DNA from: Olivibacter domesticus
Lineage (GTDB): Bacteria; Bacteroidota; Bacteroidia; Sphingobacteriales; Sphingobacteriaceae
Length of the DNA stretch: 64,000 nucleotides
Assembly (NCBI RefSeq): GCF_900109575.1
Contig: NZ_FOAF01000011.1
Span: forward strand, 124,001-188,000
Reading direction: 5' to 3'
The position numbers were made by a program, and so were the translations under genes. The notes beneath the pieces were generated by a model that did no database searches, was not told where the DNA came from, and saw only the letters and a list, made by a program, of their open reading frames with translations. Position 1 is the first letter of the stretch; each line of letters begins with the position of its first letter. Shown piece after piece: positions 6,237-12,442 of the stretch.

Positions 6237-9140
6237 TCATTGTGATTGAGCCCGTTGTAAAGTGACTGGTCCGATTAAACCTGAAGTAATCAATTTCCAA
6301 TCATCGCGAACGGCAATATTGGTTTGCGTGCGCCGCTGATCTTTCGGTAAGCCCTTGTCTCCAATTAATCTATTTCGCCAACTATTGATTACTTCGACCT
6401 CCAGCGTATTCAGACCAATCTTTGCTCCGCTTAATTTTAATCGATAGGGTGGCGACCATAAAACCGCTAACTCTTTCCCATTCAAGCTTACCTTGGCAAT
6501 CCCCACATCGGCTACCTTTCCCAGGTCCAAATATAGCAATTGACTTGAGGCGTCTTTCAAAGTAAATGACTTTTTATAAAGCGCACTACCGGAATAATAT
6601 TTTATATTCCTATCGGTGTGTTCTGTCCAGCTTGTTAGCTGTGGAAAAGTTACTTCAGCAGACTCTCCAAAAGCACTTTTAAAGGCCACCTCCCAAGCTC
6701 CACTTAAGGTATCAACGTTCTCATAATGTTCAAAATTCATCGCTCGCGTACCCTGCTGATTTGCTGGTATATTCTTCCTAAAGACAACAAACCACGAACC
6801 ATAAGGCTTAAAAGTGATAGGTATGGTAGTCATCCCATTTTCTTGCTTAAAAGCCTTCGCCTCCATTATCTCTCCTGTTTCAGGGTTCCAAAATTCGGGC
6901 AACTTTTCCGTTATTCGAAAGGCAACGTCTGTTTCTACATCCTGGCCATTTTGATTGCTTAAAAAGTAGTAATCGTCCTTTCCATTTCTATTATGGTGAA
7001 TATAGTCGAAATTCAACGAATCATTGTTATCAACAAAATGGCAATCAGGACTTATCCCATCCTGCATCAACCACTCACTCGCTGTATAACCCCATACCAC
7101 CCTTCCCTTACCAACTTTTTTATTTCCTCTCGCTGCCGTCGTATTTCCCCACAATGTCTCCGCTATTTGAGAAACCTCCGTTTCAGACGCAGGATAAGCC
7201 ATCAGGCTCATTGTTTTTTGGGTTTTAGGTCCGATGACAGTAGCGCCATTTTGGACCAATAGCTTTATTTTTTTTAAAGCGTCAACCGATAATATAGCAT
7301 GATCAGGTAGTACCAAAACACGGTATCTACTCCCTTGCGGTAACTGCACACAGCCCTTTGTTGTTTCCAACTGAAGCAAACGTTCTTCATTAATAACATC
7401 ATAGTCAAAATCAGGCAACGCTCCCGCCGGATCACTTGCCTTCAATGTAGCGATATTAGGGACATGATCGCCATAATAATACAGCACATCTGCAACAAAT
7501 TGACCATCTTGCATCATATATTGCACTCTGGCCATGTAATCAAAAAAAACATTGGCGAATTTCCACCATGTTATATTTGGGTTAAAATGTGTACCGGCAA
7601 AATACTCCTGACCAGGCAGTCCCATTTCTTTTGGGGAGTTCGTAAAAGTATGTAAATACGTTTTGTTCAATCCAGCACATACTTCATGATCAAAACTAGG
7701 CTTCATATCTTTCCAGATAACGTCGTCCCAATGATGGCCGATAGTGGTGAAGCCCTCAGCTGCTACGAGTTTTTTACCATAAATATGCGCTGCACTTGCT
7801 GCCTGTTTTACAAAAAATCGCCTTTCTGGTGTAGGTCTATGTCCGGAAGGCGACCAAAATTCACTCATTATCAAATCGCTCCTACCGAAATTTTTTAGCC
7901 CATCAAAAGGGCCTGCATGCGGCCCTCCAGATTCAGGGTGAATACCCATACCAAATTCATGGGCTTTTTGCGCGAAAAAGCCATAGTGATTATCTGCAAT
8001 ACAGTCGCTAATCGTTTTTCTAAAATCGGCTAAAAATCGATTACTTTCTTCTCTGCTATTGATGATCTTTCCAGCCACGACCGGAAGAAATGACAATAAA
8101 TCGTAGTTTCTTCGGTTACGGAATTCATCGCGAAGACTTTCAGTCCAATTTGCGCCACCGAGCTCCCAGCTATCTGTATGCAAATAGTTCAATGTCGTAC
8201 CCGCCAGCGTATCAATTGAGAGCAATAAAGGACGTACATGTCTATTCCAATAGTGTAAAAAATGCTGCTTGCTCATATAATCTATAACCAAACCATTCCA
8301 GCCACCACTTGCGGTAGAAACATGTGCTCCATTGGTGGTGTAACCAAATCGCATAATGGTCCATTTTCCAGCAGGTACGGTCCACTCTAATTCTCCTTTG
8401 TCATTTAATTTGTCTGTTAAATCGATCACTTCTTTGCTACTGGCATGCGCCCTTCCATCTTCCTTATTTTTATCCTTTAAGAAAGCTGGCCGCATATCTG
8501 TGGCCGAAAAAGCGGCCTCTTGCGCAGCTATCTTCGAATTTAAATCGCTTACCGACGCCAAGTCGGCATCCGCTGAACGGAAAGGAATCGCTAATACCGC
8601 AATATCCTGATAAAAATCGTTGCGGTGTTTGGGGATTGGTAATTTAATAGCCGAGGTGTGGTCATCAGACACCGTTATTTCCGACCAAGTTAATAACTTG
8701 GAAGCTTCTTGTGGCTGCACATCTGGCCCACCCAAATTCCAACCACTCTGAATGCTTAGTCCCAGCTTTAATCCTAGTCTATTCGCTTCTTTTACGGCAT
8801 GCTGAAATAATAATTGCCATTCAGCACTTCCAAACATTGGCCCTTCCGGCACATCACCGTTGCCCTGTTGGTTTTGGCCCCCTGCATCAAATATTAACGC
8901 TCCATTAAAGCCTTTCTCCTTCATAGCTTCCAGATCGTTCGTAATAGATGCTTCGGTTACATTACCGTTTAGCCACCACCAAAAGCAGCTTATTCCATAT
9001 TGGGATGAGGGTGTTTTAAAACTTTCTTCAACTAATTCTACGTGTGGTTTGTCGGGTTCTTCATTTATTTGACAGGATCCCATAGTAAACACAGCAATCA
9101 AGACCACTCCTATTTTAATTTTTTCTATCATAATTGTCAT
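6237..9140 (-). CDS. GH106-family alpha-L-rhamnosidase (lipoprotein)
   Basis: Predicted alpha-L-rhamnosidase of the large GH106 family, which acts on rhamnogalacturonan side chains. It has 967 residues. A lipoprotein signal ends in TMGSC, so the mature protein would start at a lipidated Cys near residue 23. The TIM-barrel-like domain opens with the family hallmark FWWWLNGNVTEASITNDLE and continues with GFNGALIFDAGG and GLSIQSGWNLGGP. A conserved acidic segment AAEGFTTIG lies near residue 459 (candidate catalytic Glu by family position). The C-terminal 200 residues form the galactose-binding-like jelly roll (LLYLDLGKVADVGIAKVSLNGKEL). The next in-frame ATG at 9131 is an equally good start. The gene belongs with SusD at 10721-12442 but is now separated from it by an IS110 insertion. 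Confidence 0.88.
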   Translation of the reverse strand: MTIMIEKIKIGVVLIAVFTMGSCQINEEPDKPHVELVEESFKTPSSQYGISCFWWWLNGNVTEASITNDLEAMKEKGFNGALIFDAGGQNQQGNGDVPEGPMFGSAEWQLLFQHAVKEANRLGLKLGLSIQSGWNLGGPDVQPQEASKLLTWSEITVSDDHTSAIKLPIPKHRNDFYQDIAVLAIPFRSADADLASVSDLNSKIAAQEAAFSATDMRPAFLKDKNKEDGRAHASSKEVIDLTDKLNDKGELEWTVPAGKWTIMRFGYTTNGAHVSTASGGWNGLVIDYMSKQHFLHYWNRHVRPLLLSIDTLAGTTLNYLHTDSWELGGANWTESLRDEFRNRRNYDLLSFLPVVAGKIINSREESNRFLADFRKTISDCIADNHYGFFAQKAHEFGMGIHPESGGPHAGPFDGLKNFGRSDLIMSEFWSPSGHRPTPERRFFVKQAASAAHIYGKKLVAAEGFTTIGHHWDDVIWKDMKPSFDHEVCAGLNKTYLHTFTNSPKEMGLPGQEYFAGTHFNPNITWWKFANVFFDYMARVQYMMQDGQFVADVLYYYGDHVPNIATLKASDPAGALPDFDYDVINEERLLQLETTKGCVQLPQGSRYRVLVLPDHAILSVDALKKIKLLVQNGATVIGPKTQKTMSLMAYPASETEVSQIAETLWGNTTAARGNKKVGKGRVVWGYTASEWLMQDGISPDCHFVDNNDSLNFDYIHHNRNGKDDYYFLSNQNGQDVETDVAFRITEKLPEFWNPETGEIMEAKAFKQENGMTTIPITFKPYGSWFVVFRKNIPANQQGTRAMNFEHYENVDTLSGAWEVAFKSAFGESAEVTFPQLTSWTEHTDRNIKYYSGSALYKKSFTLKDASSQLLYLDLGKVADVGIAKVSLNGKELAVLWSPPYRLKLSGAKIGLNTLEVEVINSWRNRLIGDKGLPKDQRRTQTNIAVRDDWKLITSGLIGPVTLQRAQSQ

Positions 9141-9180
9141 TATTACGAGATTATTTTTGACTGGACGAGGGTATCCGAAA

Positions 9181-9297
9181 AGCCGTCATTTCGAGCGAAA
9201 CGTTTGAAGTCGAGCGCCGGAAGGCTCAACGATTTAAATCTTTTATAGGTAATTCCCCTTTATCAGATTTCTCCATTACGCTTTGCTCCAGTCGTAT
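9181..9297. repeat. REP-like palindromic element, left part (interrupted by IS110)
   Basis: The sequence starts AGCCGTCATTTCGAGCGAA and, after a central divergent part, runs into an inverted half (GATTTCTCCATTACGC, then CTCCAGTCGTAT). Dispersed repeats of this type (GTCATTTCGA...GAGAAATC) are common between genes in Bacteroidota. Its right arm is missing here but is found on the far side of the IS as ATGACGGCT (10685-10693). Joining the two parts restores an element of about 124 bp with 9-bp terminal inverted repeats. Confidence 0.7.
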
Positions 9298-9421
9298 TCT
9301 AGGTTGATCATAATTCCAAATTTTAATAAAAAAAGATTGACTTATCATACAAAACAATTTTATTGGTTGAAGTGGTTTCAACCGGCATTCGTTCTTTAAC
9401 ATGATGGTAATGTGGGCTTTT

Positions 9422-10414
9422 TTATGAAGCCCGTTTATAATTTTCGACATATAATTCACGTCTTTTTACAAGGGAGAACATCCTTAATATTAGTTTGAAT
9501 TTCACGTTATTTAAGACCAGGTTAAAACACTTGGTCTGCTGTTTTCGTTCTGCATAGGCATGGATCTCGGGATCGTGTTGCATGGCTGTTTTAGCAGCCT
9601 GATTCAGCTCCTGCTTAAGCTCCTTATGGGCCAGGTGGCTAACTCTTGGCCTACCTTTTATGCTGGTGCCGGAGGTGTTAGCAAAAGGTATCACACCGAC
9701 AAAAACAGCATATTTTCTTGCGTCCGGGAATGAGGTAAAATTCTCTGTGTAGGCGATGGTCATCCATGCGTTTACTTTACCGATCCCTTTGATACTGGTT
9801 ATGATACGGTAGTTTTGGGACATTTCCTCCTCGCCCGTGATGATGGCATCAATTTCCTTTTCTATCTCAAGCTGATACTTTTGGTTGGTTCTGATCTTTG
9901 ATTTAATAATTCTGGTAATTGTATCCCCTTTGTTTACTGCATACATGTGCCTCCGTTCCTGCAGGGTATTCTCTAAGCCTGCTTTTTCCCTCACCAGCCG
10001 TTTACGGAAGGAAAGTAGCTGTCTGATGGACAGGATTTTAGTGTTCAGTGGTTTTGAAGGGCTGAGACGTTTGATCTTTTCCTCTCCATAGCGGCCAATA
10101 CGGAAAGAATCAACCTGATCATTTTTACCTCTGACCATGCCCATTGAGTTCCTGATCTCTAATCCCGATATTCTGGTGTAAGCAATAGATTGAGACTCGC
10201 AGAACTGCATAAAACGGTACTCGTACCCACCCGTGAACTCCATCACTACCAGGGTTTCCTGTAGGTGGATAGCATTGGTTTTACACCACTTTTTAAACAA
10301 ACTGAACCCTTTACTCTGATTCTCAATTTTAAGGTGCAGTTTACGCGCTGCGCAGCTGATGTCAAGTGTAAGTTTAGATACATCGACACCTAAGATAACA
10401 TTCCAGTTTTTCAT
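9422..10414 (-). CDS. IS110-family recombinase (transposase)
   Basis: DEDD/serine recombinase that excises and inserts the element, in recently studied IS110 members under the guidance of a bridge RNA. It has 330 residues, normal for the family. The N-terminal RuvC-like domain shows D11 (GVDVSK), E59 (VVMEFTGGYE), and D99 and D102 (GKNDQVDSFRIG). A coiled-coil-like linker (about 130-200) follows. The C-terminal Transposase_20 domain has SIKGIGKVNAWMTIAYTE (about 207-224) and GVIPFANTSGTSIKGRPR with candidate nucleophile S248. The reading frame is intact, so the element may still be active. The start ATG at 10414 is preceded by a long non-coding left end, the arrangement of the IS110 rather than the IS1111 subgroup. 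Confidence 0.95.
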   Translation of the reverse strand: MKNWNVILGVDVSKLTLDISCAARKLHLKIENQSKGFSLFKKWCKTNAIHLQETLVVMEFTGGYEYRFMQFCESQSIAYTRISGLEIRNSMGMVRGKNDQVDSFRIGRYGEEKIKRLSPSKPLNTKILSIRQLLSFRKRLVREKAGLENTLQERRHMYAVNKGDTITRIIKSKIRTNQKYQLEIEKEIDAIITGEEEMSQNYRIITSIKGIGKVNAWMTIAYTENFTSFPDARKYAVFVGVIPFANTSGTSIKGRPRVSHLAHKELKQELNQAAKTAMQHDPEIHAYAERKQQTKCFNLVLNNVKFKLILRMFSLVKRRELYVENYKRAS

Positions 10415-10442
10415 ACGTTTATCTTTTAAATACCTTTAAATA

Positions 10443-10684
10443 ATTGCCTTTTGCCGATCACCTTTGATGGATCAAAGAAAGTATTCTAGCTAGGCCTTGG
10501 GCAATAATAAAAGGCAGGGACTCATACGACTGTAAGTTCTTCAAAACTAGAAATGACGAAAGTTCACCCTGCCTTTTATTTAAAACGTTATCCTTTTCAC
10601 TTTTAGTTTCTATAAAAACCCACGCTACCATCTTGACCAACCACGCAAAAAAGCGACGGAACTTCCTTTGTTTAACCAAAGGAA
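10443..10684 (-). ncRNA. Predicted IS110 bridge RNA in the left end
   Basis: Reading the minus strand there are three structures. (a) An 8-bp hairpin TTCCTTTG/CAAAGGAA at 10684-10663. (b) A 14-bp stem (10580-10567 with 10519-10506) closing an internal loop. Its 5' side carries CGTCAT (10558-10553), matching the left flank GCCGTCAT of the insertion. Its 3' side carries CAGTCGTAT (10532-10524), complementary over 9 nt to the right flank ATACGACTG. (c) A second stem (TTGCC/GGCAA). Its 5' side carries CTAGAAT (10489-10483), matching the right IS end plus core. Its 3' side carries CAAAGGTGAT (10466-10457), pairing with the core plus left IS end (ATTTCCTTTG) with one mismatch and one wobble. This is the target-loop/donor-loop layout described for IS621. 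RNA ends are approximate. Confidence 0.75.
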
Positions 10685-10693
10685 ATGACGGCT
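10685..10693. repeat. Right arm of the IS-interrupted REP-like palindrome
   Basis: ATGACGGCT is the exact inverse complement of AGCCGTCAT at 9181-9189. The AT (10685-10686) is the duplicated core of the IS insertion, and the remaining GACGGCT completes the palindrome split from 9181-9297. Confidence 0.7.
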
Positions 10694-10720
10694 ACAGAAT
10701 TTCAAACACCTTCTTTCAAT

Positions 10721-12442
10721 TTATCTATTTTCCCATCCTGGATTTTGCTGTAAAGCTTCGTCTTTATTGGTATCTATAATGGTGTTGGGAATTGGCCATA
10801 GATTATAATTAAACGTAAGCGTGGCCTTCGCTTCTGGCCAATAAGCATATTGCCGAATACGGTCTACGCCTATGGTACCCGACATGCGTAAAAGTGTATT
10901 CCAACGACTTTCTTCATAGATCAGTTCCCTTGCTCGCTCATCTAGAATCAAGTTAAACTGATCGTCTACATCTGCAGCAGTAACCAGATAATCACATTTC
11001 GCGCGTGCCCGTAGCAGGTTTATATCCGCAGCGGCACCATTTTTATCGCCAAGACGCTGTTTAGCCTCGGCTCGTAATAGGATGGTCTCTGACAAGCGAA
11101 TAATATAATCATCCCGAAAAAGGTTACTCATATTCTCACCATCCTCAACTCCCGTATATTTGTCCGTTGCAATTTTACAGGATACGGGATAACATAAACT
11201 ACTGTTTGCAGCATTTACAGTCGCATCACTGCTACCATTGTAAATCTCTTCCCAAGGTACTGGCTTTCCGAAGTAGGGCGACGTCGGCACATTACCGATA
11301 AATATACGACGGAAGACAATATCCGAATTTCGCATATCGTTCGCCCACTTATCCGTATATACACCATCTCTTGTATACATCGTAGGTATCATTTGTGCGA
11401 TTCCTCTTCCACCTACGTCTTCAGCTGAACCTGTAAGGTGATCTTTTGCCCCGTCACGAAACACCGGACTATAAGTTCTGGAATAGGGTAACTTAGACTT
11501 ACCATCTTCTGCACGATAAGCACTGTAGTCAATCTGTAATGCCCAAATACATTCGCGATTTCCATCCTGATAGTTCACATTATTCTCTTGAAACAAATCC
11601 CAATAAGCGTTCCCCTTCGCCTCCTCTTGCCTCGATCCGAATCGTTCCTTCATCAATGAAAAGGTTCCACCGTCAATCACCTTATTGGCAAAGGTTACCG
11701 CTTGTGCAAAAGCCGATGGCGCATCGCCCCCCTCAACGCCTAGCTGTATTCCCTTTGCCAAATACAGTCTTGCCAATAGATGTTGTACCGCTCCACGAAC
11801 AATGCGGCCTCCGGCAGCGGTGGTTTCCGGTAAATCGTTTTCTATTTGTTGCAGCTCATCAATTGCGAACTGATACGTTTCTACCCGAGAACTACGCTTA
11901 AAATCATATTTAGGCTCTTTTATTATTTCGGTAACCAAAGGCACTCCCCCAAACAATTCGCCCAGATTTAGGTAGGCAAAGGCGCGAAAAAATTTAGCCT
12001 GTGCAACAACATAAGCCTTTTCATCGTCAGAAGACCACGATATAGTTGGTAAATCAGCAGAATATATAGCTAAATTTGCTTTTGCGATGATCTGATACCA
12101 GGTACTATACACATTGTAAAAAACGCCATTGTCTGGATTGATATTACCATAATTATTAAAAGTGCTTCCACGGCGGATACTTGCTACGTCGTACATATCC
12201 GTGCCATTACCACGAAGCACAAAAATCCACCCTTCTTCACCGGGGTTGGCCCATAAATCGCGGATCTGTGAATAAATAGCTACTACTGCTTGGTCAATTT
12301 GTGCGGCGGTACTAAAAGCATTATCTACTGTATAAAATGTGGAGGGTTTTTCTGTCAGGAAATCCTTATCTGCTTCACAACTTACTAGGCTTAAAAGAAT
12401 ACTCATTACTCCAATTAAGCTATTTATAAAACCTTTTTTCAT
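10721..12442 (-). CDS. SusD/RagB-family nutrient-binding lipoprotein
   Basis: Surface lipoprotein that caps the SusC transporter and binds glycans. It has 573 residues. A lipoprotein signal ends LLSLVSCEAD (Cys about 22) and is followed by the mature start DKDFLTEKPSTFYT. Tetratricopeptide-like helices include AKFFRAFAYLNLGELFGGVPLV (about 150-170) and GAVQHLLARLYLAKG. The C-terminal SusD signature has IRLSETILLRAEAKQRLGD, LLRARAKCDYLV, LDERARELIYEESRW and the ending WPIPNTIID...LQQNPGWENR. It follows the STN-SusC gene after a repeat-filled gap of about 300 bp, unusually long for a susCD pair. Downstream, an IS110 element separates it from the GH106 and GH78 genes that probably shared its transcript. 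Confidence 0.95.
   Translation of the reverse strand: MKKGFINSLIGVMSILLSLVSCEADKDFLTEKPSTFYTVDNAFSTAAQIDQAVVAIYSQIRDLWANPGEEGWIFVLRGNGTDMYDVASIRRGSTFNNYGNINPDNGVFYNVYSTWYQIIAKANLAIYSADLPTISWSSDDEKAYVVAQAKFFRAFAYLNLGELFGGVPLVTEIIKEPKYDFKRSSRVETYQFAIDELQQIENDLPETTAAGGRIVRGAVQHLLARLYLAKGIQLGVEGGDAPSAFAQAVTFANKVIDGGTFSLMKERFGSRQEEAKGNAYWDLFQENNVNYQDGNRECIWALQIDYSAYRAEDGKSKLPYSRTYSPVFRDGAKDHLTGSAEDVGGRGIAQMIPTMYTRDGVYTDKWANDMRNSDIVFRRIFIGNVPTSPYFGKPVPWEEIYNGSSDATVNAANSSLCYPVSCKIATDKYTGVEDGENMSNLFRDDYIIRLSETILLRAEAKQRLGDKNGAAADINLLRARAKCDYLVTAADVDDQFNLILDERARELIYEESRWNTLLRMSGTIGVDRIRQYAYWPEAKATLTFNYNLWPIPNTIIDTNKDEALQQNPGWENR

Follow-up and report, generated by a model that had tools for sequence, protein, structure and literature searches.

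The locus raises the question of whether the non-coding left end of an IS110-family element in Olivibacter domesticus encodes a bridge RNA whose loops read the site into which the element was inserted as well as the element's own ends. The original prediction, made on the window (the whole 64,000-nucleotide stretch of DNA analyzed here), answered that it does and that, with an intact recombinase, the locus forms a complete candidate programmable recombination system. From the evidence set out below, the feature is very probably an IS110-group insertion sequence, complete and lying on the minus strand, with a sequence that suggests a cycle of excision, promoter assembly and insertion.

Recombinase and distribution of relatives

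Pfam, alignment A1 and a match to IS621 identified a DEDD/Ser recombinase of 330 amino acids, encoded at 9422 to 10414 on the minus strand. It scored 56.7 bits against PF01548 (cut-off, 29) and 61.5 bits against PF02371 (cut-off, 21.3), having the DEDD RuvC-like N-terminal domain and the Transposase_20 C-terminal domain with a conserved serine by which the IS110 family is defined. Residues D11, E59, D99, D102 and S248 were invariant in 11 aligned recombinases (that of the window and 10 relatives), with the D and E residues presumably filling their roles in the DEDD pattern. Among solved structures, the recombinase matched IS621 (8wt6; profile match, E = 3.5e-18) and ISCro4 (9t56), and S248 aligned with chain residue 243 of 8wt6. 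The latter was taken to be S241 of PMC11208158, with an offset of two residues. The pattern expected of an intact DEDD/Ser recombinase was therefore present by Pfam, by alignment and by the IS621 structure match, and the Pfam and structure matches suffice to assign the fold. Ahead of the recombinase gene the element also has the extended non-coding region, with its bridge RNA, that sets the IS110 group apart from IS1111; this left end is 267 bp, from 10681 to the start codon at 10414.

Close relatives were rare: at E ≤ 1e-60 they turned up in 10 of the 399 family genomes and 10 of the 400 order genomes searched, and both searches returned the identical ten genomes, the window's own among them. 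Across the phylum, a profile search at E ≤ 1e-50 found relatives in 18 of 395 genomes. The recombinases of the ten aligned near relatives share 55 to 82% identity with that of the window, and the remaining lineages are more remote. A scan of viral contigs gave a single remote relative, which was not used, and plasmids yielded no relative at E ≤ 1e-50. Two further IS110-family recombinases are found in the window's own genome, at C12:79645-80076 (L001) and C10:661019-661426 (L003).

Boundaries, core and target repeat

The joined flanks, CGTCATTTCGACTGGAGC, were searched for in the element's own genome, which holds one copy of the element. At up to three mismatches 11 places were found, two of them exact (reversed-pattern control, 4), and six (L028, L029, L030, L032, L034 and L036) run on into sequence resembling the element's flanks. 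Both exact copies read as an unbroken target, CGTCATT-TC-GACTGGAGC, and thus the AC at 9294 to 9295 arrived with the element. From this reading and the junction table of the relatives, the element was placed at 9296 to 10681 on the minus strand (1,386 bp without cores), its left end starting CTTTGG at 10681 and its right end finishing in CCTAGAAT at 9296. On the same strand, the left-junction core is TC (10682 to 10683), which is target derived and agrees with the empty repeats, and the right-junction core is AC (9294 to 9295), which is donor derived, missing from the exact empty repeats and also found on the right in near relatives. The empty repeats likewise define the left half of the target, CGTCATT (10684 to 10690), and the right half, GACTGGAGC (9285 to 9293), both on the minus strand. 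Against these repeats the boundaries first proposed, 9298 and 10684, are off by 2 to 3 bp, and the AT first proposed as the core proves to be the last two bases of the right end. Instead of CCTAGA-AT-TTCC, the junction of an excised circle is now predicted to read CCTAGAAT-AC-CTTTGG.

The rest of the interrupted REP-like palindromic repeat lies at 9178 to 9294 on the minus strand, a matched stretch whose final base belongs to the core, and the other arm resumes at 10682 to 10696. This repeat of approximately 115 bp occurs at seven places in the genome at E < 1e-10, this one counted, and an inverted copy of the window's site, identical at 15 of 20 bases, lies about 100 bp away; thus, it was an arm of a REP-like palindrome that was hit. 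The neighboring open frames, at 10721 to 12442 and 6237 to 9140, are all on the minus strand; we take the first to be SusD-like and the second, which is long, to be enzyme-like. An inverted repeat (CTTTGgttaaaCAAAG) opens the left end at 10666 to 10681; its arms can be extended, here and in L004, into the adjoining bases of the target, and the repeat would fall at the very start of the predicted transcript.

Stems, loops and guides of the predicted bridge RNA

The two-loop part of the bridge RNA occupies 10443 to 10582 on the minus strand (160 bits with covariance model R1, for which the window is 1 of 12 training sequences), and the transcript probably starts nearer 10670, as judged from the promoter described below. 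The features that follow are all on the minus strand. The 14-bp stem of the target-binding loop, with its 5' arm at 10567 to 10580 and its 3' arm at 10506 to 10519, had been predicted and is real. Within this loop the left target guide, CGTCATTTC (10550 to 10558; 7 nt plus core TC), is identical to the left flank at 9 of 9 positions, and the right target guide, CAGTCGT (10526 to 10532), is complementary to AC-GACTG. It adjoins the handshake bases AT (10524 to 10525), which match donor positions 6 and 7 and correspond to the AT that had been mistaken for a core; guide and handshake together, CAGTCGTAT (10524 to 10532), are complementary to the right junction at 9 of 9 positions. In the second loop, the left donor guide, CTAGAATAC (10481 to 10489), is identical to the right end plus core AC (9 of 9), and the right donor guide, CAAAGGT (10460 to 10466), is complementary to AC-CTTTG, the core plus left end (7 of 7). 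Both proposed first-loop segments, one matching the left flank and one complementary to the right flank over 9 nt, were therefore recovered; those of the second loop do match the element's own ends, although the core that they carry is AC and not AT.

The fold of 10440 to 10583 was better than that of 200 of 200 shuffles (z = -3.45), and that of a longer stretch, 10430 to 10690, was unremarkable (z = -1.84), with 8 of 200 shuffles equally good. Using R1, built from 12 sequences including that of the window, the place of the bridge RNA was the sole match in the genome. Run over 37 sources, the window being the one training sequence among them, the model gave 14 matches at E ≤ 0.05 in 13 sources, with that in L051 on the strand opposite to its gene, and no match at this threshold in the other 24. 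RNAalifold, run on a MAFFT alignment, returned 23 pairs, 7 with two-sided change, and a covariation term near zero; as the outer stem seems to be misaligned in this input, an anchored test of the stem arms was used instead. A free search for the longest stem chose other stems in several relatives and found stems of up to 12 bp in shuffled left ends, so stem length alone was not taken as evidence. An Rfam search of 9000 to 11000 gave one sub-threshold chance match.

Two variations were seen in the left ends of relatives. That of L017 (1189 to 1471) has two tandem target-binding loops (R1 matches at 1189 to 1292, 35.6 bits, and at 1331 to 1471, 114 bits), which differ at the guide positions; the upstream one fits the right flank better, and neither fits the left flank. 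In L005, L006, L007, L008, L013, L015 and L021 a G-rich stretch resembling GGGGGGTCTGGGGGGTGTT, a possible quadruplex or regulatory element, lies approximately 45 to 70 nt from the left end and upstream of the first stem; it is absent from the window, L004 and L018.

Covariation of guides and flanks among relatives

A total of 46 copies were delimited from genomes of the same phylum and collapsed to 34 lineages, twelve being further copies of the same elements. Ends were placed by eye, guided by terminal motifs (CTTT and its relatives at the left; GAAT, GAAA or GATA at the right) and not by the TTTG box discussed below. Loci left undelimited, and so outside the guide and promoter tests, were L001, L040, L042, L045, L047, L050, L051, L055 and L059 of one set of 25 and L078, L080, L081, L086 and L091 of another of 15; L045 is the same place as L088, which was later used. 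The ends of L054, L092 and L064 were not included, L009 is without a left end, L019 is without a right flank, and L013 and L073 are without a usable left flank. Duplicate loci (e.g., L004/L011, L005/L014 and L007/L016) were counted once, and four genomes contribute two entries with different guides (L015/L021, L053/L060, L058/L088 and L073/L090).

Without correction for relatedness, the left flank (7 nt plus core) found a best match of 7.72 of 9 in its own left end versus 5.98 in those of other elements, a sum reached by 0 of 10,000 permutations over 32 lineages, and the right junction with handshake found 8.15 of 9 versus 6.30 (0 of 5,000 permutations; 33 lineages). The donor guides behaved in the same manner, at 7.94 of 9 versus 6.86 for the left and 6.42 of 7 versus 5.93 for the right (0 of 5,000 permutations each, relatedness again uncorrected). 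The left match reached 8 or 9 of 9 in 19 of 32 lineages and the right match with handshake did so in 26 of 33. In seven of the 32 (L018, L044, L046, L052, L072, L077 and L090) the left match was only 6 of 9, and the own element ranked 9th to 22nd; in addition, the right flank of L048 and the left flank of L017 showed no fit to their own guides, and some best left matches fall outside the loop. In near relatives with a clear match, the left guides lie at left-end positions 119 to 132. Where the right guide was clear (26 of 33 lineages), the stem arms paired over 10.7 bp with their own partner and over 7.3 bp when swapped, a result reached by 0 of 5,000 shuffles uncorrected for relatedness; stems of at least 8 bp were formed by 23 of the 26 own pairs and also by 33% of swapped arms.

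Across relatives, two stem-loops with internal loops are conserved, the first-loop guides match both target strands and change with the target, and the second-loop guides match the element's own ends. The expectation that the first-loop guides would change with the target while the stem-loops persist was thus borne out in most lineages and fails in the exceptions named above. The strand logic proposed by analogy with IS621, the left guide identical to the top strand and the right guide complementary to it, is upheld by this covariation.

Targets as host repeats

The target rebuilt for the G082 element occurs 106 times in that genome, that for G341 8 times and that for G733 20 times, each with 0 copies in the other two hosts and 0 for the reversed-pattern control. 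Judged by these counts, the rebuilt targets of three relatives are repeats private to their hosts among the three hosts tested. An inverted copy of the site was found within 150 bp of 12 of 41 copies, belonging to seven lineages (control, 2.9%), and of none of the four copies in G341. The idea that every target is a palindrome was rejected, as only these 12 of 41 copies have an inverted copy beside them; by this measure palindromes are common, not universal, targets. A remote IS110 element present in five copies in G733 (L043, L056, L061, L062 and L063) inserts into GTCATTTCGA-type palindromes, which resemble the window's repeat, and reads the opposite strand of the arm.

Taken together, the guide/flank covariation, the stem covariation and the host-private target repeats support an IS110-type bridge RNA with loops encoding the target and the element's own ends. 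The same data weigh on two other accounts. One holds that the stem is a chance feature of a 5' leader, that the similarities to the flanks are coincidental and that the protein alone sets target specificity; single matches of 7 to 9 nt are indeed individually weak, shuffling yields stems of up to 12 bp, and the left end as a whole folds no better than some of its shuffles. Set against the permutation tests over 32 to 33 lineages, the position of the left guides at 119 to 132 in near relatives with a clear match and the superior pairing of own over swapped arms, this account is scarcely credible. The other keeps the system as first proposed, AT being its core and 9298 and 10684 its ends, and has in its favor that AT is present near both junctions and within all four segments originally identified (CGTCAT, CAGTCGTAT, CTAGAAT and CAAAGGTGAT). 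An AT core would go with the empty site CGTCATACGACTG, whereas the exact unbroken repeats read CGTCATTTCGACTGG and not CGTC-AT-ACGACTG, and relatives have ...AAT|AC and NC|CTTTGG in common, making it very improbable. With the TC and AC cores substituted, the original observation is partly confirmed and its interpretation partly supported, and a complete candidate programmable recombination system is plausible.

A split core

At the right junction the core was AC in 17 lineages, TC in 11, GC in 4 and AA in 1; at the left it was GC in 13, AC in 10, TC in 8, CC in 2 and GG in 1. The second base was C in 33 of 34 lineages on the left and 32 of 33 on the right. Within the near group, AC was the core at the right junction in 12 of 12 lineages (a further copy, L022, reads AA) and the left core was variable. 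The first core base differed between target and donor in 17 of the 31 lineages for which both flanks were available. The base specified by the right target guide is that of the donor in 14 of 17 split-core lineages and that of the target in 2 of 17; among those with a clear left guide, the left guide specifies the target's base in 9 of 14 and the donor's in 0 of 14. Guides were placed here by best match with no position limit and some are misplaced (e.g., in L004 and L006), which adds noise to the 14 of 17 and the 9 of 14. The first-loop handshake bases, assigned by the rule described in parts of PMC11208158, match the donor in 23 of 30 lineages and the target in 8 of 30 at position 7, and in 21 of 30 and 9 of 30, respectively, at position 6.

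Hiraizumi et al. (PMC11208158) showed that cleavage of the top strands falls on the 3' side of the core, after which the incoming core of the donor is paired with the right guide. The window's junctions fit this account, the left end having kept the target core and the right end that of the donor, and we infer that core position 8 may act as a further handshake position in these elements. The window's TC/AC departs from the IS621 type, in which the same core dinucleotide with T as second base is found at both junctions. As IS621 is itself reported to accept other first core bases, the departure was read as a variant.

A predicted promoter at the circle junction

When the right end, donor core and left end of the window's element were joined in silico, the sequence TTTG-N20-TACCTTTG was formed. 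The -33-like TTTG box lies in the right end (9317 to 9320, minus strand) and, in the circle, stands 20 nt from the -7 box, to which the left end contributes CTTTG (10677 to 10681, minus strand) and which is completed only by the junction. Bacteroidota promoters are described, in sections of PMC7366714 and PMC9723704, as having TTTG near -33 and TAnnTTTG at -7; sigma-70 promoter elements are reported there as absent (PMC7366714), and in Flavobacterium johnsoniae the -33 element was not found, according to the same part of that source. The sequence of the circle junction by itself presents the pattern recognized by the primary sigma factor of the phylum. Durrant et al., in portions of PMC11208160, describe IS110 circles as rebuilding a promoter across the core, which is sigma-70-like in IS621. 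In the open-access literature, no paper was found on junction promoters or cores of Bacteroidota IS110 elements, and the main texts of PMC11208160 and PMC11187229 contain no word that starts with "bacteroid".

In circle form, NTTG precedes a -7-like box by exactly 20 nt in 33 of 33 delimited lineages (22 TTTG, 8 CTTG, 2 GTTG and 1 ATTG), a non-blind count, as the pattern was first spotted on five elements, extended by eye and then scripted. When the right end was replaced by the left flank of the integrated element, NTTG at N20 was found in 0 of 29. Using a script free in start and in spacing from 18 to 23, the mean best promoter score (of 10) was 9.24 for circles, 7.45 for integrated junctions and 7.80 for shuffled right ends (highest of 300 means, 8.21); the circles of L049, L053 and L060 score just 7. 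In the window, the left junction of the integrated element retains a score of 9 of 10 at N18, so that silence after insertion is not assured and a promoter that is off when integrated is not a clean description. In the window group the -7 box straddles the junction, TA coming from the right end plus core and TTTG from the left end, and in most other lineages the box lies 6 nt further inside (TAGATTTG) with NTTG 6 nt nearer, keeping the spacing.

It is conceivable that the conserved TTTG of the right end is instead a binding site for the protein or RNP, that is, a sub-terminal repeat, as short repeats of this type can occur in IS110 ends (noted in a portion of PMC11208160), the assignment as a promoter is made from sequence, and the F. 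johnsoniae report above offers no -33 element for comparison. That NTTG moves with the -7-like box when this is displaced by 6 nt (TACCTTTG versus TAGATTTG), holding N20 in every lineage, argues for a promoter and makes a binding site unlikely. That the element is a fossil that is no longer mobile, as its single copy in the genome could indicate, is likewise unlikely in view of an intact reading frame, a preserved stem, guides that still match both target and donor, and a predicted junction promoter.

Proposed cycle and comparison with known systems

In the cycle that we propose, the recombinase and bridge RNA would excise the element as a circle, in which the joining of right end to left end would build a promoter for the Bacteroidota primary sigma factor (TTTG-N20-TACCTTTG) that could transcribe both the bridge RNA and the recombinase. 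The first loop of the resulting RNP would pair with both strands of one arm of a REP-like host palindrome (CGTCATT-TC-GACTG) and the second with the circle junction (CTAGAAT-AC-CTTTG), after which the circle would be inserted; with the top strands cleaved 3' of the core, the left end would retain the core of the target and the right end that of the donor. The anatomy, exact boundaries, covariation of guides with flanks and of stem arms, use of repeats as targets and promoter geometry are shown at the level of the sequence, from which transcription, RNP formation and present activity would follow by inference.

More broadly, the data tilt somewhat toward the Bacteroidota IS110 elements being a distinct branch of bridge-RNA systems. 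Such a branch would combine a split core, with C shared, the target's base encoded by the left target guide and the donor's by the right, in which the core base acts as an extra handshake that favors strand exchange and fixes which core stays where; a circle junction that builds the phylum's promoter at 20 nt, so that guide RNA is made mainly from the circle; and guides tuned to the private repeats of the host. The locus provides a candidate Bacteroidota bridge recombinase with exact ends, core and guides and with a promoter expected to be functional in Bacteroidota. With its naturally split core, the element permits the handshake model of strand exchange to be tested directly, by asking whether the right guide should specify the core base of the donor; the host-private repeats are instances of a single RNA scaffold being retargeted in nature, and further natural guide-target pairs can be read by the same approach.

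IS110 elements that target REP sequences, inserting into extragenic palindromic repeats, were reportedly described by Tobes and Pareja in 2006; here the guides that select the repeat are read as well, and three relatives target repeats private to their own hosts. Possession of a bridge RNA is unsurprising by itself, since these are predicted for 85.7% of IS110-group elements (stated in part of PMC11208160). Like the seekRNAs of ISEc21 (IS110) and ISEc11 (IS1111), as presented in sections of PMC11187229, the window's RNA lies in the non-coding region and has a stretch matching each target strand. It shares with the IS110 type of that account the position upstream of tnp and the circle promoter, and differs from the IS1111 type, in which the non-coding region is downstream of tnp and the guide order is opposite (PMC11187229, same sections). 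The closest likeness is to IS621 as described in portions of PMC11208160 and PMC11208158, which likewise carries its bridge RNA upstream of the recombinase, within the left end, and has two loops in which each left guide equals the top strand and each right guide is complementary, handshake bases, a REP-type target, a promoter-creating circle junction and a top-strand cut 3' of the core; the strand polarity of the window's guides agrees with that given in PMC11208158. The loop and stem sequences differ, and the recombinases are only remotely alike. On paper, then, the RNA would work like the IS621 bridge RNA with a different core rule, NC with a first base that often differs between target and donor in place of CT or NT, and a different promoter type, TTTG-N20-TAnnTTTG in place of the sigma-70 promoter reported for IS621. 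The Bacteroidota-type promoter at the circle junction and the first core base that differs between target and donor are the two features that appear to go beyond the IS621 description.
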